Part shown: one piece after another, positions 1,052 through 15,636 of the stretch | Layout of the letters: the number at the start of each line of letters is the position of its first letter | Numbering within the stretch: position 1 is the stretch's first letter | Source of the DNA: an uncultured Gammaproteobacteria bacterium | Lineage (GTDB): Bacteria > Pseudomonadota > Gammaproteobacteria > UBA6429 > Thiohalophilaceae | Assembly: GCA_913064945.1 (NCBI GenBank) | Contig: CAJYAN010000002.1 | Coordinates: 1 to 64,000 of the forward strand | Direction: 5' to 3' | DNA length: 64,000 nt | Made by a program: the position numbers and the translations under genes | Notes under the pieces: generated by a model | What the model was told of the DNA's origin: nothing | Database searches by the model: none | Seen by the model: the letters and a program-made list of their open reading frames with translations, nothing else

Positions 1052-2251
1052 ATGGCGTTGGTTAACATGAAAGATTTGCTCAATCATGCCTATGCTAATC
1101 ACTATGCGGTTGGTGCGTTTGAGATCGTCAGTCTGAAGCTCCTGCATGCGGTGATTACGGCTGCAGAGCAAACCCGTTCACCAGTAATTCTGAATATTGT
1201 TGAGCCGCATTTTGACCTGTTCGATGTCGAGCTGTTAATGCCCTCCGTTGTCGATGTTGCCAGGCGCGCAAGCGTGCCGGTGGCCGTGCACATGGATCAC
1301 TGCGAAAGCCTGGCATCGGTACAGTCCGCCATTCGTCTGGGCTGCAATGGCGTGATGGTCGATGGCGCACAAGATGAATTGCCTGACAATATCAATAAAA
1401 CCCGTGAGGTTGTTACTCTGGCGCATGGCTGCGGCGTACCGGTCGAGGGTGAATTGGGGCATGTTCCCGGCATGAAACCCGATATTGACGATGATGCTAA
1501 ATCGGTACAGACCTCGGCCAATGAGGCCAGGGTTTTTGTCGAACGCACTAACGTGGACTTTCTGGCAGTCTCTATTGGTACGATGCATGGGGTCGCCAAC
1601 GGTAAACTGCGTCTGGACTATAATCGACTGTCAAAAATCAATGAAGCTGTGAATATTCCTCTGGTGATTCATGGCGGTACCGGGTTAACGGATCAGCAGT
1701 ATCATAAGCTCATCGATCAAGGTGTGGCGAAGATCAATTACTTTACGGCCCTCGCAGAACTGATTGTTGCTCAGACGCAAAAAAATCTCTCGAAAAAAGA
1801 AGTAGGCTATCGGGGGATGTTTGCCAATGTTCATGAGGCACTGGTCGCTGAGGTGAAGCGAGTCATGCAGGTCTGGCGTAGCGCCGGGCGTGCCGCAGAG
1901 ATCCTGATTCAATGCAGTACCTGGAATAATGTCGAGCACGTCATTGTGTATAACACCAATGACAACGATCCCACCGTTACCCAAATTATGCTACGTAAAG
2001 GTAAACAAAAGCTCAGTAGTATTCCGGGTGTGCTGGAGGTCCGTATTGGTCGAGCGACTGACGATAAGAGTAAGTATCGGTACTGCTGGCTGGTGCGTTT
2101 TGCCCATGAAAACGTGATAGAAAATTATAAAAATCATCCTGTGCATGTTGAGTTTGCCGATAGTTATTTTCGTCCCCTCGCCGTGGATCGCGTTACTAAC
2201 GATTATGAGATTATTGATGACATGGAGCTGGCTCGGCAGTTTCGTGCCTGA
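1052..2251 (+). CDS. Class II fructose-bisphosphate aldolase-like protein fused to a Dabb domain
   Basis: 399 residues. Residues 1-285 are a class II (zinc) ketose-bisphosphate aldolase: HMDHCES (D82 catalytic, H83 zinc), GELGHVPG around E134, GTMHG (H179 zinc) and VIHGGTG (H207 zinc). The aldolase fold at this length is the short GatY/KbaY-like type. Residues about 293-392 form a separate C-terminal domain (starts VEHVIVYN, later HPVHVEFAD) that I read as a Dabb (stress-responsive alpha/beta barrel) domain. Such a tail is not part of the ordinary aldolase. Cleavage or formation of fructose- or sedoheptulose-bisphosphate would suit the Calvin cycle genes downstream, but the substrate is inferred. 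The ATG at 1052 follows a weak AAGG. Confidence 0.85.
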   Translation: MALVNMKDLLNHAYANHYAVGAFEIVSLKLLHAVITAAEQTRSPVILNIVEPHFDLFDVELLMPSVVDVARRASVPVAVHMDHCESLASVQSAIRLGCNGVMVDGAQDELPDNINKTREVVTLAHGCGVPVEGELGHVPGMKPDIDDDAKSVQTSANEARVFVERTNVDFLAVSIGTMHGVANGKLRLDYNRLSKINEAVNIPLVIHGGTGLTDQQYHKLIDQGVAKINYFTALAELIVAQTQKNLSKKEVGYRGMFANVHEALVAEVKRVMQVWRSAGRAAEILIQCSTWNNVEHVIVYNTNDNDPTVTQIMLRKGKQKLSSIPGVLEVRIGRATDDKSKYRYCWLVRFAHENVIENYKNHPVHVEFADSYFRPLAVDRVTNDYEIIDDMELARQFRA

Positions 2252-2426: not shown

Positions 2427-4106
2427 ATGGAACAGCTGATTACGAGTATACCGGCACTGCCGATTATCTCAGCCATCCTGACACAGGCCCTGGCAAGCCG
2501 ACTTGATCGACGGGTTGCCTGGTTGAGCGTAACGATGTTGGCGCTCACGTTTGCATTGACGGTTGTGATATTGGTAGCGCACCTGGCGGGGTTTGACAGT
2601 CAGGTCGTTGGTGCGACACATAGCTGGGGTATCTTACTCAATGACCCCCTGAGTGCGATCATGGGTGTGCTGATCTCTGGCATTAGTTTAATCGTGCACA
2701 TCTACTCAGTACGTTATATGGCGGAAGAACCGGGATATGCCCGTTTTTTTGTCCTGCTCGATTTAATGACAGCAAGCCTGCTGGTGATGGTTGCTGCAGG
2801 TGACTTGATCACGTTGTTGGTGGCCTGGCACTTTATCGGAATACTGCTGTATTTTCTGTTGGGCTATGACATGCGCCGTCAGAGTCCTTTTCGTTATGCC
2901 TTCTGGACTTTTATTACCTATCGTATTGGCGATATTGCAATGGTCGCGGCGGCGGCGATCTTGTATTACGCGTATGGATCGTGGTCACTAACCGATATTT
3001 TTTCCGGTATTCAGAATAATCCAAACGTTTCCGGCCTGATGGGGATGACCGCCGTGCAGACGGCAGCCGTATTGCTTGCTTTGGCGGCGTTTGCTCGTTC
3101 CGCGCAGTTCTTCCTGCATAACTGGTTACCGTATTCGATGGATGGGCCGACACCGGTGTCGGCGCTGATGCACGCCGGTATTGTCAATGCCGGTGGTTTT
3201 TTGATTAATCGTTTTGCGCCGGTGTTTGTCCAGGCCGGTGATGTGCTACATGGTCTGTTTATTGTAGGTCTGGTTACAGCTGTCATCGGTTCGGTGCTGA
3301 TGCTGACACAGAATGACGTTAAGAAGTCACTAGGCTACTCCACCATGGGCCAGATGGGCTTCATGATCATGGAGTGTGGCGTCGGCGCCTTCTCGTTGGC
3401 GATATATCACCTTATCGCACACGGTCTGTTTAAGGGGACGCTGTTCCTCAGCGCGGGGAGTGTCATTAATGCCGCGCGGGGTGATGATGGTGTGCCGAAA
3501 AATGATCTGTATAAATTTGTCGTGGAGCGTCGACCGGCACAGCAGCGTCCGCCATGGTTACTGATGGCCGCCATTACCCTGATAGTCCCGGCATCTGTTT
3601 TATTCATGGCACACTGGCTGGTATCGCAGGACTTTTTCCAGAAGCAGGGCGTGATCGTGCTGTTGTTTTTTGGTTGGGTGACTGGGGCGCAACTGATCTT
3701 TTCAACTTATCGTATGCGTGCCGAGAGTACCGGACGGCTGTTGACCATGGTGTTAGCCTCTTTCACCGTGGTGGTGGTTGGCTATACCCTGATCGCCCAC
3801 GCCTTTGAGCTGTTTTTATATCCGCAGGCGTACTTCCGTGAGCTGATGCATAGCGCGTCCAGCTTTAATGTGTTGTGGTTTGACATCATGGTCATTGTAA
3901 CCACCGTCGTGATCGTCCTCGGCTGGTTACTGACCTATTACTCGGAACGTAACGGGAAGCGGGTTCGTCGCCAGCCGAAACGTGTCTGGTTGAGTTTTTA
4001 TGCCTTGATCTCCCGTGAATTCTACATTGCCGATGTCTATGCCTGGTTAACACGGGTGACATTGCGGTTCGCGGAATCTCTCAACGTCTGGTTAAGGTGG
4101 GCCTGA
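2427..4106 (+). CDS. dabB: DabB: proton-conducting-type membrane subunit of the DAB inorganic carbon pump
   Basis: 559 residues, almost entirely hydrophobic helices, of the NuoL/MrpA antiporter-like family (PF00361). Family features include the lysine/histidine-bearing segment MDGPTPVSALMHAGIVNAGG (about residues 239-258) and KKSLGYSTMGQMGFM (about 299-313). DabB pairs with DabA to form an energy-coupled bicarbonate/CO2 uptake complex in chemolithoautotrophs; cation flux through DabB is thought to drive DabA. Position one gene upstream of dabA in the same operon supports this assignment over a complex I subunit, as no other nuo genes are nearby. An RBS-like GAAGG precedes the start. Confidence 0.93.
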   Translation: MEQLITSIPALPIISAILTQALASRLDRRVAWLSVTMLALTFALTVVILVAHLAGFDSQVVGATHSWGILLNDPLSAIMGVLISGISLIVHIYSVRYMAEEPGYARFFVLLDLMTASLLVMVAAGDLITLLVAWHFIGILLYFLLGYDMRRQSPFRYAFWTFITYRIGDIAMVAAAAILYYAYGSWSLTDIFSGIQNNPNVSGLMGMTAVQTAAVLLALAAFARSAQFFLHNWLPYSMDGPTPVSALMHAGIVNAGGFLINRFAPVFVQAGDVLHGLFIVGLVTAVIGSVLMLTQNDVKKSLGYSTMGQMGFMIMECGVGAFSLAIYHLIAHGLFKGTLFLSAGSVINAARGDDGVPKNDLYKFVVERRPAQQRPPWLLMAAITLIVPASVLFMAHWLVSQDFFQKQGVIVLLFFGWVTGAQLIFSTYRMRAESTGRLLTMVLASFTVVVVGYTLIAHAFELFLYPQAYFRELMHSASSFNVLWFDIMVIVTTVVIVLGWLLTYYSERNGKRVRRQPKRVWLSFYALISREFYIADVYAWLTRVTLRFAESLNVWLRWA

Positions 4107-4107
4107 T

Positions 4108-4863
4108 ATGTCGTTGCCTGTGCTGTTAGTTGCTGGCCTGTTTCTGCCGCTATTTCCCTTTAGCATGCTATTTAATGTGCTGTATGCGCGTGTACGGCAT
4201 CCGGTATTGCGCGGGGTGTTGCTACTTGTCTGGCCGCAGATTGGTCTGGCGATAATACTCATGTCCAGCGCATCGATACCGCCATGGCTGCCGGTGTGGG
4301 CACTGTTGACGTCACTGCTCTATGCCTTGCGAGCCCTGGCCTTGCGTGAGTTGGGTTTATGGACCAGTTTTATCGCAACCTCGGCCTGGGCATTAGTGTG
4401 GATTGTCCTTAGTAGCGGTGCGAGCATGACACAACTGCAATGGGTTGGTTTGGGAATTAGTGCCCCGTTGCTACTGATGGCCTTTCTGGTTGCCGGTCTG
4501 GAACATCGTTTCGGTGCCGCATACCTCGATCTGTACGGTGGTCTGGCACAAACCATTCCGCGTTACACGACCGTGCTGGTAATAGTCATACTGGCCATTA
4601 TTGCCAGCCCGTTGTTTCCTACCTTCTTTGCCATGTTGTCAATAATCATCAAGGTCTTCCCGGTCAGACCTTCTATGGCCATTGGTGTTGGTGTTGTCTG
4701 GCTGTTATGGAGCTGGGCCGGGGCGAGAGTATTGCAGGGATTGATTATCGGTCCAGGGCATCGGGATGTTGTCGACCTGAAGCAGGCAAGTCTATGGCTT
4801 TATCTTCTGCTGCTGGCTGGATTGATCGTTAGCGGTGTCTACGGGTTAGGAGGAATGCTATGA
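4108..4863 (+). CDS. Membrane protein between dabB and dabA, function unknown
   Basis: 251 residues with about seven predicted transmembrane helices and no catalytic motif that I can identify. It starts one base after the dabB stop and overlaps dabA by four bases (ATGA), so it is translated as part of the dab operon. An unknown membrane gene occupies the same place in the carboxysome-linked dab operon of Halothiobacillus neapolitanus as I recall it; whether it is homologous cannot be settled here. Some segments resemble the helices of NuoL/M-type subunits, so it could be a small auxiliary subunit of DabB. The function is unproven. Confidence 0.8.
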   Translation: MSLPVLLVAGLFLPLFPFSMLFNVLYARVRHPVLRGVLLLVWPQIGLAIILMSSASIPPWLPVWALLTSLLYALRALALRELGLWTSFIATSAWALVWIVLSSGASMTQLQWVGLGISAPLLLMAFLVAGLEHRFGAAYLDLYGGLAQTIPRYTTVLVIVILAIIASPLFPTFFAMLSIIIKVFPVRPSMAIGVGVVWLLWSWAGARVLQGLIIGPGHRDVVDLKQASLWLYLLLLAGLIVSGVYGLGGML

Positions 4864-7800
4864 GCGTCGCGCTGGGTCAGCAGTTAAAAATTCGCAGCAT
4901 GATCTATGTGGCGGCCGAACCCGTGCCATATTTCTGGCCAATGCGGTCTTTTATCCATCACAACCCATTGCATGGTCTTGAAGACATGTCCTTCTCGGAG
5001 GCGCTGGATAAAGGTGCGAAGTTGTTTCATGGCCAGGCCTATCTACCACGAACGGTCTATCAGCGGTATTTACGTGACGGCAAGATTGAACGTCAGCATC
5101 TACGTCAGGAGGTGGAGCGTTTTCTGGAGCAACATACAGGCGCGGTTTCTACCGGGATGCCGGACAGATTAATGAACCTGCTAACACAAATGGAATCGCC
5201 GGTTATGCTGCCGACGGCACTGGCCAGTGATGCGGACATCCAGTCAGCCCTGCAGGGGCGTCCGCTCGATGCGAGGAATACCTCCGCGACGGCCGTCGAG
5301 GATTCCATCCGTGAACGCCTGCGCCAAAACCTGTTGGGTGGCCGGCCGATCTACGAAGCCGTGGACAGCATGTATGGTACGGACATTAGTAGCAGCCTCG
5401 ATGAGCTGGTGATCAAGAGTTGTCTGGATTTTTTTGATGAAGGCCAGTCCGTCTGGCGCATGCCCAATCGCGAACAGGGATTTTTTGCCGCCTGGCGACA
5501 GGTGGCAAAAAGGAATATCCGTTTATTCCTGCGCGGTTTACACATCAACGATATTCTTGCCGTCGACGAGACACCGGAAGGTGTTATCGATTATGTGATG
5601 ACAACGCTGCAGATCCCGCAGGAGAGCTGGGTAGATTATTTCACCCAGGAGTTGGCACGCCTGCATGGTTGGGCCGGTTTTATTCGCTGGCGTGCCACGG
5701 CCAAGCACTATCACTGGACGCAGCGTTTCCCCGGCGACCTGGTGGATTACATGGCGATCCGCCTGACACTGGCGCTGGCACTATTGAGTGAATGTAGCCG
5801 TCGGCGGGTGGCCTGTACCGCCGAATCCATTAATGAACTCATCGCGACGCGCACCCACGAGGCCTATTTACGCTACGAGCTTTATAGCGGTGCTGTGGTT
5901 CCATCCTTCGCACATCGCATCGAGACGGCACTGTTGCGGGGCCGTGATACGTTAATCAAACAGACGTTTACGGATTACCTGCAACATAAACGTCAGCAGG
6001 AGGCACAGCAGCAGAGTGAACATTTGCATCGTTGGCTGTCACAATGCGATGCCGGTGCTGACCTGGCACAACTGCCAGCACAGGACTTTGCCAGTACGAT
6101 GGCATTGCTGCGTGAATTCGAACGTCAGGAAGGCATGTGCTGGTTACGTGCTATGGAAACACATGCCATGCAGGCGTTGTTACATGGCGTTAACCTGATG
6201 ACTGTCGAGACACGTGAGAAACGCCCCTTTGCACAGGCGTTGTTCTGTATCGATACGCGCTCCGAACGGATCCGCCGCCAGCTGGAAGGCATTGGTGATT
6301 ATCAGACCTTTGGCATTGCCGGATTTTTCGGCGTACCGGTCAGCTTTATGGAGCTTGGCAAGGGGAGTGAGACGCACCTGTGTCCGGTGTTGTTAACGCC
6401 AAAAAACGTGGTCCTGGAAATGTCCATGAATGGCGAACAGAAACCTGCTGCCCTGGGGGTTCTGGAAAAGGGCCTGCATGCGCTCAAGGAATCCGTGCTG
6501 ACGCCGTTCGTCACCGTCGAGGCTATCGGCCTGTTGTTTGGCTTTGACATGGTCGGTAAGACCCTCGCGCCGCGTGTCTATAACCACTGGCGTCATGGCC
6601 TGCATCCACAAAAACCGGTGACTCGCCTGTTGCTCGACAAACTGACACGTGAACAGGCGGACTCCATTGTGCGTGCCGTGCAGCGAGCCGTTATTGTCAA
6701 GGCGCTGGAGCAGGAACTGGGACAGGCGACCGAAAAACTGAATGATGAATTGATCCGCGACCTGCGTGAAGCGGCCATGGGGCACGATTGTCAGTATCGA
6801 CAGCATGCCAGAGAACTCGATGTCAGCGAGGCTCAACTGGATGACTTTATCCAGCGCCTGCGCGAGGGTTATCGGATCAATGCGGCATTTGCACAGATCC
6901 AGCTGGAACAACTTGGCCGCATCGGTTTTACCCTCGATGAGCAGGTGCGCTTTGTCAGCCAGGCACTCAAGTCTATCGGCCTGACAAAGGGCTTCTCCCG
7001 TTTTGTGTTGTTGGTCGGGCATGGAAGTAGCTCCGAGAATAATCCTTATGAATCCGCGCTGGATTGTGGTGCCTGTGGCGGTAATCACGGCCTGGTCAGT
7101 GCGCGGGTACTGGCACAAATGGCCAATAAAGCGGATGTGCGTAAACGTCTAAATGAAAAGGGTTTTCAGATCCCGGAAGACACCTGGTTCGTATCGGCGT
7201 TGCATAACACCACGACCGATGAAATCAGCGTATCCGACCTGGACTTGCTGCCGTCATCTCATCTGGTCTATCTGGATCGACTACGTAAAGGCCTGACGGC
7301 CGCATCACGGTTGTGCGCGCAGGAACGTTTGCCCAGCCTGCAGTTAGTACGGGGTAATACGGAGACGCCTGAGGCGGCGTTTCGTATGACGCAACGCAAT
7401 TCCCTGGACTGGTCGCAGGTGCGGCCGGAGTGGGGACTCTCCGGTAATGCCTATTTCATTATTGGTAATCGTACCCTGACCCGTCAGATGAAACTCAATG
7501 GCCGGGCCTTTTTACATTCCTACGATTATCGTCTCGATAGCAAACGGCAGTTGCTGGAGAACATTCTCACGGGTCCGTTGGTGGTGGGGCAGTGGATCAA
7601 TATGGAACATTACTTTTCAGCGGTCGACAACGAACGCTTTGGCAGTGGCAGTAAGGTCTACCATAACGTCGCTGGCCGCTTTGGGGTCATGACCGGTAAC
7701 CTCAGTGATCTACGAACTGGCCTGCCTTCACAGACTGTGCATGAACAGGGCCAGCCATACCATCAACCGCTGCGATTGATTACCGTTATCGAGGCTCCAT

Positions 7801-7991
7801 TCGAACACGCACGACGTGCGGTCGAGTCCGTTGTCTCGGTGAAGTACCTGGTTCGCAATGGCTGGATTCGACTGATGGTCATGGACCCGGAATCACAAAC
7901 GGTATTTGTTTATGACGATGGCGACTGGTCTGAGCAGGCTTGCACAGGCGCCGTCTCTACAGAATCGCCAAAGGAGCGTATGTCATCATGA
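4860..7991 (+). CDS. dabA: DabA: zinc-binding, carbonic-anhydrase-like subunit of the DAB pump (DUF2309)
   Basis: 1043 residues, the usual size for UPF0753/DUF2309. The four residues that coordinate zinc in characterised DabA are recognisable: C463 and D465 in FCIDTRSE, H721 in VGHGSSS and C736 in LDCGACGG; the H-to-C spacing of 15 matches the family. DabA resembles beta-carbonic anhydrases and is thought to hydrate CO2 vectorially on the cytoplasmic face when coupled to DabB. The start overlaps the preceding membrane gene and the stop overlaps the PII-like gene, indicating tight translational coupling. A 241-residue minus-strand open frame inside it (6393-7118) is a codon-bias shadow. Confidence 0.96.
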   Translation: MSVALGQQLKIRSMIYVAAEPVPYFWPMRSFIHHNPLHGLEDMSFSEALDKGAKLFHGQAYLPRTVYQRYLRDGKIERQHLRQEVERFLEQHTGAVSTGMPDRLMNLLTQMESPVMLPTALASDADIQSALQGRPLDARNTSATAVEDSIRERLRQNLLGGRPIYEAVDSMYGTDISSSLDELVIKSCLDFFDEGQSVWRMPNREQGFFAAWRQVAKRNIRLFLRGLHINDILAVDETPEGVIDYVMTTLQIPQESWVDYFTQELARLHGWAGFIRWRATAKHYHWTQRFPGDLVDYMAIRLTLALALLSECSRRRVACTAESINELIATRTHEAYLRYELYSGAVVPSFAHRIETALLRGRDTLIKQTFTDYLQHKRQQEAQQQSEHLHRWLSQCDAGADLAQLPAQDFASTMALLREFERQEGMCWLRAMETHAMQALLHGVNLMTVETREKRPFAQALFCIDTRSERIRRQLEGIGDYQTFGIAGFFGVPVSFMELGKGSETHLCPVLLTPKNVVLEMSMNGEQKPAALGVLEKGLHALKESVLTPFVTVEAIGLLFGFDMVGKTLAPRVYNHWRHGLHPQKPVTRLLLDKLTREQADSIVRAVQRAVIVKALEQELGQATEKLNDELIRDLREAAMGHDCQYRQHARELDVSEAQLDDFIQRLREGYRINAAFAQIQLEQLGRIGFTLDEQVRFVSQALKSIGLTKGFSRFVLLVGHGSSSENNPYESALDCGACGGNHGLVSARVLAQMANKADVRKRLNEKGFQIPEDTWFVSALHNTTTDEISVSDLDLLPSSHLVYLDRLRKGLTAASRLCAQERLPSLQLVRGNTETPEAAFRMTQRNSLDWSQVRPEWGLSGNAYFIIGNRTLTRQMKLNGRAFLHSYDYRLDSKRQLLENILTGPLVVGQWINMEHYFSAVDNERFGSGSKVYHNVAGRFGVMTGNLSDLRTGLPSQTVHEQGQPYHQPLRLITVIEAPFEHARRAVESVVSVKYLVRNGWIRLMVMDPESQTVFVYDDGDWSEQACTGAVSTESPKERMSS

Positions 7992-8314
7992 AAAATCTTA
8001 ACTTCAGTACTCTCAAAAAACTTGAAATCATCCTCGAAGGTGAGCATCAGGCCTTTGTCACAGACTTGCTCGACCGTAGCGGGGTAACCGGGTATACGAT
8101 CATTAATAATCTGTCGGGCAAGGGCAGTCATGGTTTTCATGAGGGCCATCTGATGTTCAATGAGGACGATGTCCTGATCATGGTGATTGTGGCCGTGCCG
8201 GAAGATTTGGTGAATCCGATTCTGGAAGGACTGGCACCCTTCTATAGTGAACACTCCGGGGTGGTATTTATCACGGGTATAGAAGTCACGCGCATGGTCA
8301 AGTTTCGTCATTAA
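7988..8314 (+). CDS. Carboxysome-associated PII-like protein (CPII type)
   Basis: 108 residues, a short ferredoxin-like fold protein of the PII superfamily, with core strands KLEIILEGEH, GYTIINNLSG and VLIMVIVAV. The start ATG lies inside the dabA stop (ATGA), so the longer in-frame start at 7940 inside dabA is unlikely. CPII proteins encoded beside carboxysome and bicarbonate-uptake genes bind adenine nucleotides and bicarbonate. By analogy this protein could gate the DabA/DabB pump in response to energy or carbon status. The T-loop is short, and no uridylylation tyrosine is evident in the standard context, so it is not GlnB/GlnK. Ligands here are inferred. Confidence 0.8.
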   Translation: MKNLNFSTLKKLEIILEGEHQAFVTDLLDRSGVTGYTIINNLSGKGSHGFHEGHLMFNEDDVLIMVIVAVPEDLVNPILEGLAPFYSEHSGVVFITGIEVTRMVKFRH

Positions 8315-8356: not shown

Positions 8357-8935
8357 TTAGGCGTAACGCTGACGCAGGGCGTTGACCGGGTTACGCATGG
8401 CGCGCGTCTTCTCCAGCATGCGGTAGGTAGAACGGAAATTGTTGTAGTGCATGACGTCGTGCAGCGAAAACCATGCGATGTCGAGTGATTCGTCGTTGCC
8501 CGGGATGTTCAGACGATCATCGATCTCGACGATGAAACGAATATCGATGTGTTCATGCAAAGGTATTGCCCCCATCGCGGGAGTACGATGAATATCGACA
8601 TCGAAAATAGACGTCTCAATGAGACGTATCTGTCCTGGCTCAAGTCCGGTTTCTTCTGCACATTCTCGCAAGGCGACACGCAGGATATCGTTGTCGCCGT
8701 CGGCGTGTCCTCCCGGCTGAAACCATCGGTTGAGTTTGCGATGATGGAGTAGTAATACCTGCTCACGGTCGGGACTGACGACCCAGGCTGAACCGGTGAC
8801 GTGGATGGGGGTTTCGCGGTCGAAAATTTTCTCATGTGCATGAATAAAGTCGATGGCCCGTCTGACATAGGCAACCTCGTCCATGAAGCGAGAATGGTGA
8901 GAGGTGAGTAAGTTGAGTAACTCGGCGCGATGCAT
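8357..8935 (-). CDS. Nudix hydrolase encoded beside csoS1D
   Basis: 192 residues. The Nudix box begins at G76 and reads GHADGD-N82-DILRVAL-RECAEETGL. The catalytic REUxEE core (R90, E91, E94, E95) is intact, but the first glutamate of the Gx5E element is asparagine (N82). The gene lies three bases after the csoS1D stop and would be co-transcribed with it, divergent from the carboxysome operon. Nudix genes accompany several alpha-carboxysome loci, where a role in clearing misfire sugar phosphates or nucleotides has been suggested. The substrate is unknown. Confidence 0.88.
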   Translation of the reverse strand: MHRAELLNLLTSHHSRFMDEVAYVRRAIDFIHAHEKIFDRETPIHVTGSAWVVSPDREQVLLLHHRKLNRWFQPGGHADGDNDILRVALRECAEETGLEPGQIRLIETSIFDVDIHRTPAMGAIPLHEHIDIRFIVEIDDRLNIPGNDESLDIAWFSLHDVMHYNNFRSTYRMLEKTRAMRNPVNALRQRYA

Positions 8936-8938
8936 GAC

Positions 8939-9580
8939 TTAAGTCCGCGAGGGATTCTCTACCGCCGCAATCGCCGCCGCGGCGGCTTCATCGACATCGG
9001 CTTCGCGGCCTGATAAGAGCAGACGGCCATAAGCGCCGACAGCACGGACATCGATCAAGGTGATATTGGCCGCTTTTTCCGCCTGGTTGGCGGCATAGAC
9101 AATATAGCCGGCAGGTTCTGTCTCAAGAATGAACATGCTTTGTTCAGGCAGGATCATGGAACCCATGCGATTTTGCCGATTAATCAGCACGCAGTGCTCA
9201 GGACTCATGCCACGGATGATCTCAGTCCAGGCGATAGTCGGCTTCGAACGGTCATCCACCTGGGCATTCATTCTGCCCAGCAGCGTCTGTCCGGCAGAAA
9301 TGACATCGCTTTGATCACGGTGATGGATCACCATCGAACCGTATTCCCGTTCGACAATTTTCTGGGTCAGGTGAACCTGGGTCGCCTTGAGTGCAATATC
9401 GGTGACTCGATGAATGGCCATACCGGGTGACACCTCGACCCACAGACAGGCATCACCGGGGACGGGAGGAAAACCCTGTGAAACGGTGGCCATGTACTCG
9501 GCCAGTTGCGGCTGCAGCGAGTCGATAAAGACATACGTCCTCAGCTTCATCCGGGCCTGTGCACTACTATAGATACTCAT
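8939..9580 (-). CDS. csoS1D: CsoS1D: tandem BMC-domain (trimeric) carboxysome shell protein
   Basis: 213 residues made of two BMC domains in tandem (about 8-105 and 110-205). The second domain carries [18 protein letters not shown] and [14 protein letters not shown], typical of BMC-T proteins. CsoS1D trimers stack and have a large gated pore proposed to admit RuBP and release 3-phosphoglycerate. The gene is read away from cbbL with a shared 359-bp upstream region, so both directions may respond to the same regulator. The C-terminal alanine-rich tail (EAAAAAIAA) is low complexity. Confidence 0.9.
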
Positions 9581-9939: not shown

Positions 9940-11352
9940 ATGGCTAAACAATACGAAGCGGGTGTCAAGGAGTACCGCGAAAAGTACTGGACCCCCGACT
10001 ATGTGCCCTTGGACACAGACCTGCTGGCATGTTTCAAGTGCACCGGTCAGCCTGGCGTACCTCGTGAAGAAGTCGCCGCCGCAGTAGCCGCCGAATCTTC
10101 AACCGGTACCTGGAGTACAGTATGGTCAGAATTGCTGACTGACCTCGAATATTACAAGGGCCGCGCCTATCGCATCGAAGACGTCCCCGGTGACTCTGAA
10201 TCATTCTATGCGTTTATCGCCTATCCTATCGACCTGTTCGAAGAAGGTTCAATTGTAAACGTATTGACTTCGCTCGTGGGTAATGTCTTTGGTTTCAAGG
10301 CGCTCAAGCACCTGCGACTTGAAGATATCCGCTTCCCGATTGCTTATATTAAGACCTGCGGTGGTCCTCCCGCCGGTATCCAGGTCGAGCGTGACCGTCT
10401 GAACAAGTACGGTCGCCCAATGCTCGGTGCCACCATCAAGCCGAAACTGGGTCTGTCAGCCAAGAACTATGGTCGCGCGGTCTATGAGTGTTTGCGCGGT
10501 GGTCTCGATTTAACCAAAGATGATGAGAACGTCAACTCTCAGCCCTTTATGCGCTGGCGTGATCGTTTTGAATTCGTCGCCATGGCGATCGATAAAGCTG
10601 AGCGCGAGACTGGTGAGCGTAAGGGACACTACCTTAATGTTACCGCAGCAACGCCTGAAGATATGTATGAGCGCGCTGAATTTGCCAAAGAAGTCGGTTG
10701 CCCCATCATCATGCACGACTTCCTGACCGGTGGTTTTACAGCGAACACGGGCCTGGCTAACTGGTGTCGTAAAAACGGCATGCTGTTACACATTCACCGC
10801 GCCATGCACGCGGTCATCGACCGTCATCCAAAACATGGTATTCACTTCCGTGTACTGGCCAAGTGCCTACGTCTGTCCGGTGGTGATCATCTGCACACTG
10901 GTACGGTTGTCGGTAAGCTCGAAGGTGATCGTAACTCAACACTGGGTTTCGTTGACCAGTTGCGTGAATCGTTTGTTCCTGAAGATCGTGCCCGTGGTGT
11001 GTTCTTCGACCAGGACTGGGGTTCACTGCCCGGCGTCTTTGCCGTTGCTTCAGGTGGTATTCACGTATGGCACATGCCGGCGCTGGTGACCATCTTTGGT
11101 GATGACTCGGTTCTGCAGTTTGGTGGTGGTACGCAGGGTCATCCATGGGGTAATGCTGCAGGTGCAGCGGCTAACCGCGTTGCACTGGAAGCCAGTGTCA
11201 AGGCCCGTAACGAAGGTCGCCAGATTGAGAAAGAGGGCAAGGACATTCTGATGGAAGCGGCAAGACATAGCCCGGAACTCGCCATCGCAATGGAAACCTG
11301 GAAAGAAATCAAGTTTGAATTTGAAACTGTTGACAAGTTGGACGTTGGCTAA
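9940..11352 (+). CDS. cbbL: RuBisCO large subunit, form IA (carboxysomal)
   Basis: 470 residues, full length. Catalytic residues are visible: K167 in TIKPK, the carbamylated K193 with magnesium ligands D195 and E196 in LTKDDENV, and loop 6 in GTVVGKLEG. The sequence is of the form IA type that is encoded in cso operons. The enzyme fixes CO2 onto RuBP inside the carboxysome. The start is supported by an AGGAG RBS (9930-9934) and the conserved N-terminus [13 protein letters not shown]. First gene of a twelve-gene same-strand cluster. Confidence 0.99.
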
Positions 11353-11827: not shown

Positions 11828-14086
11828 ATGGCAGAGACTGCTAAAAAGACAGCGCGCGAAATTGCAATGGAACGTCGTCGTCTTTCTTATGAAAGCGGCA
11901 AGGCGGGCCTTCACAAAATGCAAGGTGGTGGCGTCAGTTCGATTGTTGCAACTTCTACATCGACGGCTCCCGCACGTGCAATGACGACGAGTGGTACCTC
12001 TACGGCCAGAAAGGCTTCGCTGGTACGCCGGCTGGCAATGTCAGCGGGTGGTAAGGCATCAATTGTCAGCAAGGATCGGACTCGTGGTGACGAGATGAGC
12101 GGAATAACGCAGGCCACTTCAGCTGCACCGGTCATCACACCATCGACAGAGACAGCAGCAGAAAAACGTGATTGTGGATGTGGTTGTGGTGCAAGCAAGT
12201 CTGAGCGGCCTGCCGCCTCACTTGCGACGAGTCCTGTTGCCATCAAGACGCGTCCAGGGAAAAAGATTATTAATCCGACACGTGCGGCATCGCTTGCACG
12301 TCGTGTGGCACTGTCAACAAAAGGCAAGGCAGCCATTTCGGCTAAAGGCCCCAGCGCGGCGCAAACCGCCCGTGCCAGTAACCCCAATATTTCAAGTCGT
12401 GAGCTGGCACAAACTGTTCGCGAAGAACGTAGTCACAAAGGCAAGTGCAAAACAGCCACGGGCAAATGCCGACCCACAGGTCGTATGCGTCCAGGCAAAG
12501 AGCAACCTGGCGCCGCCGAAGATCAACCATGGAAAGTAGGTGCGGGTGAGACCACGCATGGGCAAACTGTCACCGGCACTATGGTAGGTCGTAGTACGAG
12601 TGTGACCGGCGATGAGCCAAGCACCTGTCGTCCGATTACCGGAACAGAATATCTTGGTGCCGACATCTTTCGCGAGTTTTGTCAGAGCGATGCAACAAAG
12701 TCACCACGTAAGGTTGGTGTGACATCGACAGCCACAGGCAATACCGTGAGCGGCAATGAAGTAGGTCGCAGTAAGAAAGTTACGGGTGATGAACCTGGTA
12801 CCTGCAAGCGTGTGACTGGCAACCAGTATGTCGGCGCAGGTCAGCTGCAAGAGTTTTGTGGTACGTCGATTGAAGCGGGCCCGGCAAAATTTTCCAGCGC
12901 GGAAACTCGCAAAGGTAAAACCGTGACCGGTAACAATGTCGGTCGCTCAGAAAAAGTGACGGGCGATGAGTCTGGCTCCAAACGCGAATTAACCGGAACT
13001 TCAATAATGCAGTCCGGTGAAGGACGTGCTCCGGCAAAGGTTGGTAAAAGTGCAACGCTGCGTGGTGGTAACGTAACGGGCACGATGGTCGGCCGTAACC
13101 AGAATGTGACTGGTGATGAACCGGGTAGTTGTCGCAACGTTACCGGTGATGATTATGTGGGTCAGGAACAGTACAGCACGTTCTGTGATACAACACCAAA
13201 ATTTACTGATCGAAAAGTCGGTGTTTCCGTAACTTTAAACAATAAAGCAGTCACCGGCACGATGACCGGTCGTGATAGCAAAGTCACTGGTGATGAGCCG
13301 GGCACCTGTAAGGCCGTGACCGGCACACCATATGCGGGAATTGAAAATTATAAAGATTTCTGTGATACACCAGCGACGAGCATGGCCGCTGCACGTGCAA
13401 AGCCACGCCGTGCCACGGCGGGAATGCCGATGACCGGTATTCAACCTGGTATTGGTGGTGAAATGACGGGTGCATCAAAAGGTGCCTGTGAACCACTTAC
13501 CGGCACACCTTATATTGGCGCCGATCAGTTTGCGAATGCCTGCCCAAGTGTACCGGCGGATAGCAATAGTCCAGATTTCCCGCAGCCGATTGGCGGCACA
13601 CCCTGGGGACAGTTCAGTGTGACTGCACCGACGCATGCGTCACAGACCGCAATGGAACATAGTTCTGTTACCGGCACACAGTATGAGAAAGGTCATATTA
13701 CAGGTCCTTTTGGCATGGCGGGTGGCAAGGTTACCGGCACCGAAGATGCCCGTTTTGGTAATAGTGGACGTGGACCCGTTGAAACGTATACCGCACAGCT
13801 GGTTGACGAACGTGCGCCGAGTCGTGTTACGGGTGAAGGTCTGGATGCAGGTTTACGCATCACTGGTGATGACTGGGGCCGCAATGAACGAGTAACCGGC
13901 ACCGAAGGGTTATCGGCCACACGCCGCAACCCGACACGTCGTGGCAGTGTGGATGCAATGGCGATGGAACAGGCTCAGCTAAAGCGAAATGAAGAACTAC
14001 CCGTACCCAATAGTAAGGTGACAGGTAGTAGTGGTAATACAGACAAGGGTTCACTAATTACTTATTCAGGTGGGGCACGGGGTTAA
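11828..14086 (+). CDS. csoS2: CsoS2: carboxysome assembly scaffold
   Basis: 752 residues, basic and low in hydrophobics, with the three-part CsoS2 layout. N-terminal RuBisCO-binding repeats are seen at IAMERRRLSYESGKAGL, SLVRRLAMSAGGKASI and SLARRVALSTKGKAAIS. About six middle repeats follow, with VTGTMVGRS, VTGDEPG and cysteine-ending segments such as EYLGADIFREFC and PYAGIENYKDFC; the third is degenerate and lacks its cysteine arm. A C-terminal shell-binding region begins at about residue 590 and ends LITYSGGARG. A possible -1 frameshift signal at 13576 would give a shorter CsoS2A. The scaffold nucleates RuBisCO and recruits shell proteins. Confidence 0.97.
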   Translation: MAETAKKTAREIAMERRRLSYESGKAGLHKMQGGGVSSIVATSTSTAPARAMTTSGTSTARKASLVRRLAMSAGGKASIVSKDRTRGDEMSGITQATSAAPVITPSTETAAEKRDCGCGCGASKSERPAASLATSPVAIKTRPGKKIINPTRAASLARRVALSTKGKAAISAKGPSAAQTARASNPNISSRELAQTVREERSHKGKCKTATGKCRPTGRMRPGKEQPGAAEDQPWKVGAGETTHGQTVTGTMVGRSTSVTGDEPSTCRPITGTEYLGADIFREFCQSDATKSPRKVGVTSTATGNTVSGNEVGRSKKVTGDEPGTCKRVTGNQYVGAGQLQEFCGTSIEAGPAKFSSAETRKGKTVTGNNVGRSEKVTGDESGSKRELTGTSIMQSGEGRAPAKVGKSATLRGGNVTGTMVGRNQNVTGDEPGSCRNVTGDDYVGQEQYSTFCDTTPKFTDRKVGVSVTLNNKAVTGTMTGRDSKVTGDEPGTCKAVTGTPYAGIENYKDFCDTPATSMAAARAKPRRATAGMPMTGIQPGIGGEMTGASKGACEPLTGTPYIGADQFANACPSVPADSNSPDFPQPIGGTPWGQFSVTAPTHASQTAMEHSSVTGTQYEKGHITGPFGMAGGKVTGTEDARFGNSGRGPVETYTAQLVDERAPSRVTGEGLDAGLRITGDDWGRNERVTGTEGLSATRRNPTRRGSVDAMAMEQAQLKRNEELPVPNSKVTGSSGNTDKGSLITYSGGARG
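13576..13582 (+). promoter_or_regulatory. Candidate -1 ribosomal frameshift heptamer in csoS2
   Basis: TTTCCCG lies in the reading frame as T TTC CCG (codons for D583-F584-P585), the X XXY YYZ register needed for -1 slippage. After slippage the new frame runs 26 codons to a TAG at 13660-13662, giving a product of about 611 residues that lacks the C-terminal domain. Small inverted repeats follow (CACAC...GTGTG, CAGT...ACTG). CsoS2A/CsoS2B production by frameshifting is established in Halothiobacillus; its use here is inferred. Confidence 0.6.
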
Positions 14087-14115: not shown

Positions 14116-15636
14116 ATGTTGCATACTCGTCGAAAAATTGCACGCCAAGCTCGCTGGTCTCAACCAGCGAGTGGACAGGCTGCCCCCATGCGTTCTGGAG
14201 ACAGGGCCATGTCGACGCGTGTCGCAGAGTTTGTAAGGACCCGTGCTGGCTTTCATCCCTTAACGGATCAAAGCGAGAATCAGCAACTTTATGCATATGA
14301 GCAGCGTGTAAAGAGTGCCTTTGACGCGATTGTGCCAAGTCTCAAACGCATCTCGGCCCTTCAGCACGAGGTGGATTTTGAGCGCCAGGCACAGGCCATT
14401 ACGCGTGAGCAGCTCGGCTTTGAGTTACCAGAGGAAACGCTGGCGGATGCCTGGGTCGACCAGCTGGATCTGCGTAAATTGTTTGCCTGGTGCGTATTTC
14501 AAACGTATCAGCGTTTTTCAGATGAATTTTTTAGCGGCCAGCAGTTAATTGAAGATCAGACCTTCCAGTCTTTTTTGATGGAATGCGGTTTTCATACGCT
14601 GGATGTGTCTCCCTGTGCGGATGGACGGCTGGCACACGTCATTAGCTATGTGCTGCGCTTGCCCTATCGTGAGGTTCGTCGTAAGTCCTATGCGGGTGCC
14701 ATGTTTGATATCGAAGACAGTCTGGCGAAATGGACCGAAACGGAATTTTTACGCTTTCGGGAAGGACGGCCAAACACCGCCGATGCACAGACAAGGTATC
14801 TGAAAGCGGTGGTCTATCACTTCAGTTCGAGTGACCCCGATCATGAAGGCTGCGCCGCACATGGTTCTGACAGCGGCAAAGCGGCACAGGCTGGTGTGAC
14901 CCGCCTGCGCGGTTTTCAGCAAGCGGTTGAAAATAGTTTTTGTTGTGGCGCATCCATCGATCTGCTCCTGATGGGGCTGGATACGGATACCGACACCATT
15001 CGTGTGCATGTTCCAGATGAGGATGGTGAAATTAATTTGTCGACCTATGTGGATGCGGGTGAGGTGTACGCCGAGACCTTCAATATGAATGCATCGCAGG
15101 CCGCAAGCGTTGTTGAACAACGTGTGCGGGATGTCAGTACGGGTGCAACAGAAGGAATGATAAAACTGGTTGTGCGCCTGATGACAAAAAATATTTCACA
15201 GATCGATTATGTGAAGCAGTTTTTTAATCAGCAATATTCCGATATCGGTCATGCGGAAAGATTTATAGGTGCCGGGATTGGCTTTGAGGAAGTTCAGTTA
15301 CGCAATCTGACCTACTTTGCCTATATGAATACCGTGGAAGAGTCGACGGCGGATCTGGATGTTGGTATCAAAATATTTACGGGACTGAATGTGTCGCACG
15401 GCTTACCAATTCCCATTGTGATTCGTTTCGACTATCACGGCAACGTTCCTGGTGCACGAGATCGTGCCGTTGCCAACTGTCAACGTGTATCTGAGGCCCT
15501 GCGCGCACGATACGAAGAACTTGCACAAAGCGGTTTATTACACACACTGCTGGCGATACGTGATTGTGCGGCAGGTGAGCAGATTGAAGTCATTGAGTCT
15601 TCAGTCTATTCACAGAATACAGCGGGAGCACATTGA
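14116..15636 (+). CDS. csoS3: CsoSCA: carboxysomal epsilon/beta-type carbonic anhydrase
   Basis: 506 residues. The zinc site is visible as C167 in SPCADGRLAHV, H235 in VVYHFSS and C246 in HEGCAAHG; the 11-residue H-to-C spacing matches characterised CsoSCA. D169 and R171 form the usual catalytic dyad. The first 40 or so residues are basic and low complexity, consistent with the flexible tail that anchors CsoSCA to RuBisCO in some species. It converts bicarbonate to CO2 in the carboxysome lumen. The stop overlaps csoS4A by one base. Confidence 0.97.
   Translation: MLHTRRKIARQARWSQPASGQAAPMRSGDRAMSTRVAEFVRTRAGFHPLTDQSENQQLYAYEQRVKSAFDAIVPSLKRISALQHEVDFERQAQAITREQLGFELPEETLADAWVDQLDLRKLFAWCVFQTYQRFSDEFFSGQQLIEDQTFQSFLMECGFHTLDVSPCADGRLAHVISYVLRLPYREVRRKSYAGAMFDIEDSLAKWTETEFLRFREGRPNTADAQTRYLKAVVYHFSSSDPDHEGCAAHGSDSGKAAQAGVTRLRGFQQAVENSFCCGASIDLLLMGLDTDTDTIRVHVPDEDGEINLSTYVDAGEVYAETFNMNASQAASVVEQRVRDVSTGATEGMIKLVVRLMTKNISQIDYVKQFFNQQYSDIGHAERFIGAGIGFEEVQLRNLTYFAYMNTVEESTADLDVGIKIFTGLNVSHGLPIPIVIRFDYHGNVPGARDRAVANCQRVSEALRARYEELAQSGLLHTLLAIRDCAAGEQIEVIESSVYSQNTAGAH

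Follow-up and report, generated by a model that had tools for sequence, protein, structure and literature searches.

Background

Table 3 of a 2010 article (PMC2942843) assigns both Pfam01116 and Pfam07876 to cbbA of Acidithiobacillus ferrooxidans, and the available part of the same article places cbbA last in the cbb1 operon, after cbbQ1-cbbO1, where it is co-transcribed with cbbLS and the cso genes according to RT-PCR. The product, AFE1676, is one of three predicted aldolases in the accessible part of a second source (PMC2621215). According to the available portions of two further articles, cbb1 transcripts drop as CO2 rises (PMC6458275), and most cbb1 proteins (AFE_1676-AFE_1691) are enhanced in iron-grown cells, AFE_1676 not being singled out there (PMC6450195).

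Few bacterial operons have been studied as closely as those of RuBisCO, and the gene, frequent in them after the activase gene, is filed simply as 'fructose-bisphosphate aldolase'. A sequence-only reading of the locus described below had suggested that an extra Dabb domain could regulate Calvin-cycle aldolase, a link not known to it from earlier descriptions. The fusion was already on record in the 2010 table, without comment on the tail in the available part of that article; as far as seen, the active-site changes reported here are new. No discussion of the tail or of the active-site changes, and no enzyme assay, was found in the open-licence literature.

Domain organization of the fusion protein

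The window, i.e., the whole stretch of 64,000 nucleotides analysed here (contig CAJYAN010000002.1 of an uncultured gammaproteobacterium), contains a gene in which a predicted class II aldolase is joined to a Dabb domain. The gene, its key residues and its main neighbours are listed in Table 1.

Table 1. Coordinates of the fusion gene, its domains and selected residues, and of neighbouring genes in the window
Feature	Coordinates	Strand	Evidence and remarks
Aldolase-Dabb fusion gene	1052..2251	+	ATG start, 399 aa
Class II aldolase domain, residues 4-280	1061..1891	+	PF01116 (F_bP_aldolase) E=1e-80; full-length model matches class II aldolases
D82 and H83, both intact in window protein	1295..1300	+	Alignment with E. 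coli KbaY, GatY, YdjI
E134, intact in window protein	1451..1453	+	Alignment with E. coli KbaY, GatY, YdjI
H179, intact in window protein	1586..1588	+	Alignment with E. coli KbaY, GatY, YdjI
H207, intact in window protein	1670..1672	+	Alignment with E. coli KbaY, GatY, YdjI
Dabb domain, residues 294-386	1931..2209	+	PF07876; fold search; profile search of PDB sequences
H296, putative Dabb pocket	1937..1939	+	Aligns with first-strand His of olivetolic acid cyclase; kept in 46/47 active-site-intact members
Y359, putative Dabb pocket	2126..2128	+	Aligns with olivetolic acid cyclase Tyr; kept in 43/47 active-site-intact members
H365, putative Dabb pocket, second His of HPxH	2144..2146	+	Aligns with olivetolic acid cyclase; kept in 42/47 active-site-intact members
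dabB	2427..4106	+	Proton_antipo_M, proton-antiporter families; named from position before dabA
dabA	4860..7991	+	PF10070 E=5e-259
RuBisCO large subunit	9940..11352	+	PF00016 E=2.2e-137
csoS2	11828..14086	+	PF12288 CsoS2_M E=7.8e-174
csoSCA	14116..15636	+	PF20686 E=3.6e-111

The PF01116 match (271.7 bits, above cut-off) extends over the entire model, positions 1-277 of 277. The protein retains H83, H179, H207, D82 and E134, of which we take the three His residues to be the zinc ligands of the family, D82 the catalytic Asp and E134 the active-site Glu. The full-length AlphaFold model (pLDDT 82.6, six sequences) has 1rvg as its top structural match, followed by other class II aldolases. No NCBIfam equivalog or subfamily assignment resulted, as the protein scored below the cut-off in all 23 models matched (best score, 244.3 of 396; nearest miss, TIGR00167, with 211.7 of 215.6). 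By profile and active-site residues, the window protein is classed as a class II aldolase.

The Dabb profile matched both the whole protein (E=2.6e-9, 38.1 bits) and the tail alone (2.6e-10, 41.3 bits), the cut-off being 25. The AlphaFold model of the tail as a single chain (four sequences, pLDDT 75) shows a beta-alpha-beta-beta-alpha-beta order with a ferredoxin-like fold, and Foldseek ranked 3bde, a 'dabb family protein', first (1.8e-4), with 5b09, an olivetolic acid cyclase, close behind (4.5e-4); both families were found again when a profile of four tails was compared with PDB sequences (4e-6 and 7.8e-6). Chance resemblance of the tail to Dabb is ruled out, since the Pfam profile, the fold and the PDB profile search concur. 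The sequence-only reading had described a complete class II aldolase with an extra Dabb-like domain of about 100 residues, and both parts of that description were borne out. Dabb in this sense is the dimeric A/B barrel of Pfam, which has only its spelling in common with the transporter gene dabB.

The residues of olivetolic acid cyclase with which H296, Y359 and H365 align are presumably catalytic in that enzyme, and PDB entries for its mutants H5Q, Y72F and H78S were among the fold-search matches. All three residues are kept in 41 of 47 fused proteins with an intact aldolase site versus 14 of 30 with an altered one (Fisher p=0.0002, uncorrected). The His/Tyr/HPxH pattern is common in Dabb domains, and its presence therefore points to a functional Dabb pocket rather than to cyclase chemistry. 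Recognition of the domain by Pfam varies among relatives: Dabb was recognised at E<=0.01 in only 15 of the 22 fused proteins scanned (alignment A3), and among seven altered copies scanned singly two scored above the Dabb cut-off (L095, L180b), three below it (L070, L079, L087) and two gave no match (L084, L086).

The window locus and its host genome

The fusion gene ends 175 bp before dabB, which starts at position 2427 on the same strand; cbbL follows 7.7 kb further downstream, beyond dabB-dabA. The dabA, RuBisCO and carboxysome genes found downstream agree with the earlier placement of the gene in a CO2-fixation locus, and the fusion may be co-expressed with its neighbours in the window. A promoter and terminator scan gave a count of terminator-like elements equal to that of shuffled sequences.

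Several other features of the locus may be mentioned. A P-II-like protein (7940-8314, + strand) overlaps the end of dabA, and a similar ORF follows dabA in locus L004. Two genes on the opposite strand separate dabA from RuBisCO, one coding for a NUDIX protein (8357-8935) and the other for a protein of 213 aa that matches a BMC (shell) domain close to its end (8939-9580); homologues of the two occur in L040 and L077. The contig opens (1-350) with a 175-bp unit in tandem repeat (98%), after which a tRNA-His is found at 436-511.

The genome codes for two PF01116 proteins, the fusion and a canonical aldolase on another contig (G000:C12), and a Pfam profile search of the genome gave the fusion protein as the sole Dabb match. 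A second RuBisCO operon, cbbL-cbbS-cbbQ-cbbO on contig C1 (L101), has no copy of the fusion within its 19 kb stretch.

Gene neighbourhoods of the fusion

We mapped 84 loci that hold the fused gene or part of it. RuBisCO or activase genes are present in at least 34 of them, cso genes in at least 9, dab genes in at least 7 and cbbR in at least 30, and at least 47 contain any of these or SbtA; the counts are lower bounds, since many stretches are short or cut by a contig end and some of the weaker matches fall under the thresholds (e.g., CbbO by L062 and L174). The commonest order is cbbR (divergent)-cbbL-cbbS-cbbQ-cbbO-fusion, followed by cbbL-cbbS-cbbX-fusion in seven loci, and in other loci the fusion adjoins a divergent cbbR together with dab or cso genes. 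CbbQ and CbbX differ in their Pfam make-up (PF17866 was taken as CbbX after the available part of PMC7895386), and the occurrence of two such unlike activases indicates that the fusion goes with the RuBisCO-plus-activase unit and not with one activase. A paired control comprised the 19 genomes for which both coordinates were listed: in 11 of them the distance from the fusion to RuBisCO is at most 15 kb, versus 2 of the 19 for the canonical aldolase. Taken as a family, the fusion is a RuBisCO-operon gene, since it co-occurs with cbbLS and activases and shares their gene order.

Among the 77 fused proteins aligned below, 24 show no Calvin-cycle gene over the thresholds in their stretch and nine occur in an unrelated context. 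The genomes of 20 of these 24 have a RuBisCO match, two are without one (L059, L176), and the remaining two proteins come from genomes outside the RuBisCO search. The fusion matches in L082, L089, L092 and L097 are in broken pieces only, and the gene is therefore either damaged or badly assembled there.

A position after the activase gene, with either of two activase types, would also fit a metabolite-repair enzyme that splits misfire or inhibitor sugar phosphates (e.g., xylulose 1,5-bisphosphate), freed from RuBisCO by CbbQO or CbbX, to give DHAP plus a small aldehyde phosphate; ketose phosphates of the DHAP type are substrates of class II aldolases. Loci of this kind also hold copies whose catalytic residues are altered, and we consider such a function very unlikely.

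A second conserved neighbourhood consists of a divergent NhaR-like LysR gene, an HPF-like (S30AE) gene and, in at least five cases, a gene for a Bax1-I/BI-1 membrane protein, followed by the fusion. It is found in eight loci (L091, L094, L095, L166, L168, L170, L179 and L180) and in part in L008, and the active site is altered in seven of its nine fused copies. In locus L180 (8304-11425, + strand) the fused gene is present as a tandem pair, both copies heavily altered and separated by a second BI-1-like stretch. In the carboxysome locus of G036, a very divergent aldolase-like protein (L090:8261-9016, - strand; 25% identity) lies beside the fused copy. Small proteins of 109 aa (L042:14133-14462, - strand) and 140 aa (L050:1980-2402, + strand) recur within RuBisCO operons, in many cases ahead of cbbQ and following cbbO, and gave no Pfam match up to E 0.01.

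Distribution and co-occurrence with RuBisCO

Protein matches place the fusion in at least 59 of 369 genomes of the class, 57 of them by a match, sometimes in pieces, that extends at least as far as residue 333, and two (G121 and G236) recognised as fused once the proteins were read. The class and phylum figures are those among the matches listed, from which weak fused homologues may be missing. On this basis, the RuBisCO family PF00016 gave a match for 57 of the 59 fused genomes versus 130 of the 310 others (Fisher p=7e-17, uncorrected for relatedness). The matches in the 57 fused genomes are all at E 1.2e-116 or better, whereas some of the other 130 are weak and need not be RuBisCO, as PF00016 also matches in B. 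subtilis. Among the matches listed, DabA shows no enrichment (17/59 fused versus 65/310 other genomes, p=0.23); within genomes that have a RuBisCO match, the figures are 17/57 and 40/130. The tie to carbon fixation that had been proposed from the window is thus upheld, but a specific link of the fusion to the DAB pump is rejected, DabA not being enriched.

The two fused genomes of the class without a RuBisCO match are drafts, G264 in 270 contigs and G300 in 400. PF00485 matches strongly in each of them, but this is weak support, as the family also matches in E. coli. In a sample of 329 genomes of the phylum, at least five carry the fusion, namely the window's own and four outside the class; these four all have a RuBisCO match, in one case a contig-edge fragment only, and another of them, G625, is 9% contaminated. 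The fusion is found in 18 of the 40 genomes sampled from the order, and G700 has a 54-residue fragment of it; 14 fused genomes of the order were not already counted, and RuBisCO is present in 13 of these, the exception being G713. Considering all fused genomes searched (59 + 4 + 14 = 77), 74 have a RuBisCO match, and the three that do not are draft assemblies (G264, 97% complete; G300, 93%; G713, 71%); the named loci L005, L006 and L008 belong to genomes outside this search. Fused homologues common in heterotrophs with no link to carbon fixation, which would have spoken against the initial proposal, were therefore not the pattern encountered. A search of plasmids gave 400 matching records, three of which cover at least 80% of the query; the one of these three that is among the matches listed is a Rhizobium aldolase with 25% identity.

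Active-site changes and selection

The five residues D82, H83, E134, H179 and H207 were checked in an alignment of 77 fused proteins using the following sample: (i) Partial, broken or short (<330 aa) loci were left out (L008, L082, L083, L089, L092, L097, L098 and L099), as were unfused or divergent copies in L067, L073, L090 and L100, and L165, which is from the same genome as L004. (ii) L173 and L175 were kept, their first 16 and 38 residues missing at a contig end. (iii) Six genomes (G001, G067, G122, G681, G692 and G694) contribute two proteins each.

All five residues are kept in 47 of the 77 proteins, and at least one is changed in the other 30. H179 is the only residue changed in 12 proteins (Gln in 11, Arg in one) and E134 in one; in the remaining 17, termed heavily altered, D82 or several residues are changed. 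Unfused relatives keep all five in 31 of 32 cases, the exception (nf_L122) being perhaps misaligned. With the active site altered in 30 of 77 proteins, catalysis is not what the family conserves. The distribution by context is as follows: 4 intact and 8 heavily altered copies at cso/dab/SbtA loci (n=12); 17 intact, 11 with H179 only and one with E134 only changed at cbbLS-activase loci; one intact, one H179-only and one heavily altered at cbbR-only loci; 2 intact and 7 heavily altered in the HPF context; and 23 intact and one heavily altered where nothing was seen nearby.

For the aldolase domain, three heavily altered pairs gave dN/dS values of 0.22-0.23, compared with 0.06-0.11 for four H179Q pairs and 0.08-0.15 for the eight intact pairs with usable dS; the values come from a simple counting method, and several dS are above 1. 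Altered aldolase domains are thus still under purifying selection in the pairs tested, and this erosion of the active site under continued selection is the surprising, newly described part of the family. Usable values for both parts were available in 15 pairs, and in 13 of these the tail has a higher dN/dS than the barrel; in the H179Q pairs it drifts (0.13-0.67), whereas the barrel stays tight. The window protein and its nearest relative form one of the two exceptions, with 82% identity in the tail and 74% in the barrel.

The canonical aldolase in the same genome, the broken state of some copies and the faster change of the tail would all suit an ordinary spare Calvin-cycle aldolase, with the tail a mere dimerisation add-on and the altered copies decaying duplicates kept by chance. 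Such an account is at odds with the altered pairs tested, whose dN/dS is far under 1, and with the long open frames and conserved neighbours; we hold it to be decidedly unlikely.

A tree of the aldolase domains of all 77 fused proteins together with 18 unfused relatives, from which the active-site columns were excluded, groups the fused proteins in one clade (support 100, quick method). The fewest changes required on the quick tree are four for any loss, six for the group of 17 and five for rows with two or more losses. The AU test did not reject a single clade in any of three groupings: the 17 heavily altered rows gave p=0.215, the 30 altered rows together p=0.267, and a set of six altered rows on shorter branches p=0.142. 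Long branches meet in the tree, and they include six of the 17 heavily altered rows. Several independent losses of the active site are consequently not supported (AU p=0.14-0.27). A dependence of the loss on RuBisCO linkage or context is likewise not supported, with two usable independent pairs (those starred) and a sign test of p=1.

An aldolase of Helicobacter pylori is instructive in this regard, as structures of its H180Q variant are titled with DHAP and with FBP (5ud2, 5ud3). H180 is presumably, by motif, the same zinc ligand as H179, and Gln in this position need not abolish binding. These titles, together with the low dN/dS in a family where 17 of 77 proteins have D82 or several residues changed and 12 have H179 only, and with the altered site in 8 of the 12 copies at cso/dab/SbtA loci, would fit a main conserved role that is non-catalytic: the barrel would bind a sugar bisphosphate as a sensor or scaffold for the RuBisCO/CO2-concentrating system, and catalysis would be an ancestral leftover in window-like members. 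The evidence against this is that the whole site is kept in 47 of 77 proteins, that six of the 17 heavily altered rows are on long branches, that the link of context and loss lacks support once relatedness is included, and that the Dabb profile is weak too in altered proteins (2/7 above cut-off). We regard a mainly non-catalytic role as unlikely.

Proposed role of the fusion

The account that we favour, somewhat cautiously, is that of an active Calvin-cycle aldolase with a Dabb module, to which a non-catalytic role may have been added in some lineages. On this view, autotrophic Pseudomonadota would have in the fusion a second class II aldolase, one reserved for the Calvin cycle and separate from the housekeeping aldolase, and the fusion would descend from a single event that joined a class II aldolase to a Dabb domain. 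The intact zinc site and catalytic Asp suggest that the window protein most likely acts on DHAP-type ketose bisphosphates, making or splitting FBP and/or SBP in RuBP regeneration. The Dabb tail most likely contributes a dimer interface and a small-molecule pocket that may tune or tether the enzyme. In some lineages the catalytic residues are gone and the protein is kept nonetheless, which suggests the further, non-catalytic role. Behind this account stand the co-occurrence with RuBisCO, the gene order and the paired control, the single clade, the Dabb-pocket residues kept along with an intact aldolase site, and the co-transcribed cbbA of A. ferrooxidans. Points against it are the second RuBisCO operon of the genome, with no copy in its 19 kb stretch, the altered sites in 30 of 77 proteins, the 24 proteins with no Calvin-cycle gene over the thresholds and the nine in an unrelated context, the broken copies, the uneven recognition of Dabb and the missed NCBIfam cut-offs. 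The original proposal, that the tail could bind a metabolite or protein and regulate aldolase activity, is too narrow for the whole family, given the many relatives with changed aldolase active-site residues.

A bolder and, in our view, improbable reading is that of an aldolase-derived family turning from enzyme to sensor, in which the barrel would bind a Calvin-cycle sugar bisphosphate, in some lineages without cleavage (zinc His replaced by Gln, or the whole site gone), and the Dabb module would report carbon status to RuBisCO, the activase or the CO2-concentrating system. If the fusion carries a regulatory module and is without the catalytic residues in some lineages, the matching of RuBP regeneration to RuBisCO activity in these bacteria would have an unexamined component, and genome-based models would be mistaken for some species in counting the gene as an aldolase.

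Comparison with known systems

The cbbA product of A. ferrooxidans (ACK80290.1, AFE_1676) is listed with the same two Pfam domains as the window protein, and the likeness is that of the listing in the available part of the source; its gene follows cbbO, whereas the fusion in the window lies upstream of dabB. The canonical aldolase of the host genome (G000:C12, L100) shares PF01116 with the fusion but is 28% identical to it, has no Dabb match and lies in a 15 kb stretch free of the reference Calvin-cycle genes. The class II FBP/tagatose-bisphosphate aldolases 1rvg, 7ncc and 1gvf have the barrel fold, zinc ligands and catalytic Asp in common with the window protein, which differs in its extra Dabb domain, in missing each NCBIfam cut-off and in belonging with fused relatives whose site is altered in 30 of 77 cases. 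Mll5499 (3bde) and olivetolic acid cyclase (5b09) share the fold and the His/Tyr/HPxH pattern with the tail; their chains comprise about 100-120 aa without an aldolase part, whereas the Dabb domain of the window protein is fused to an aldolase.
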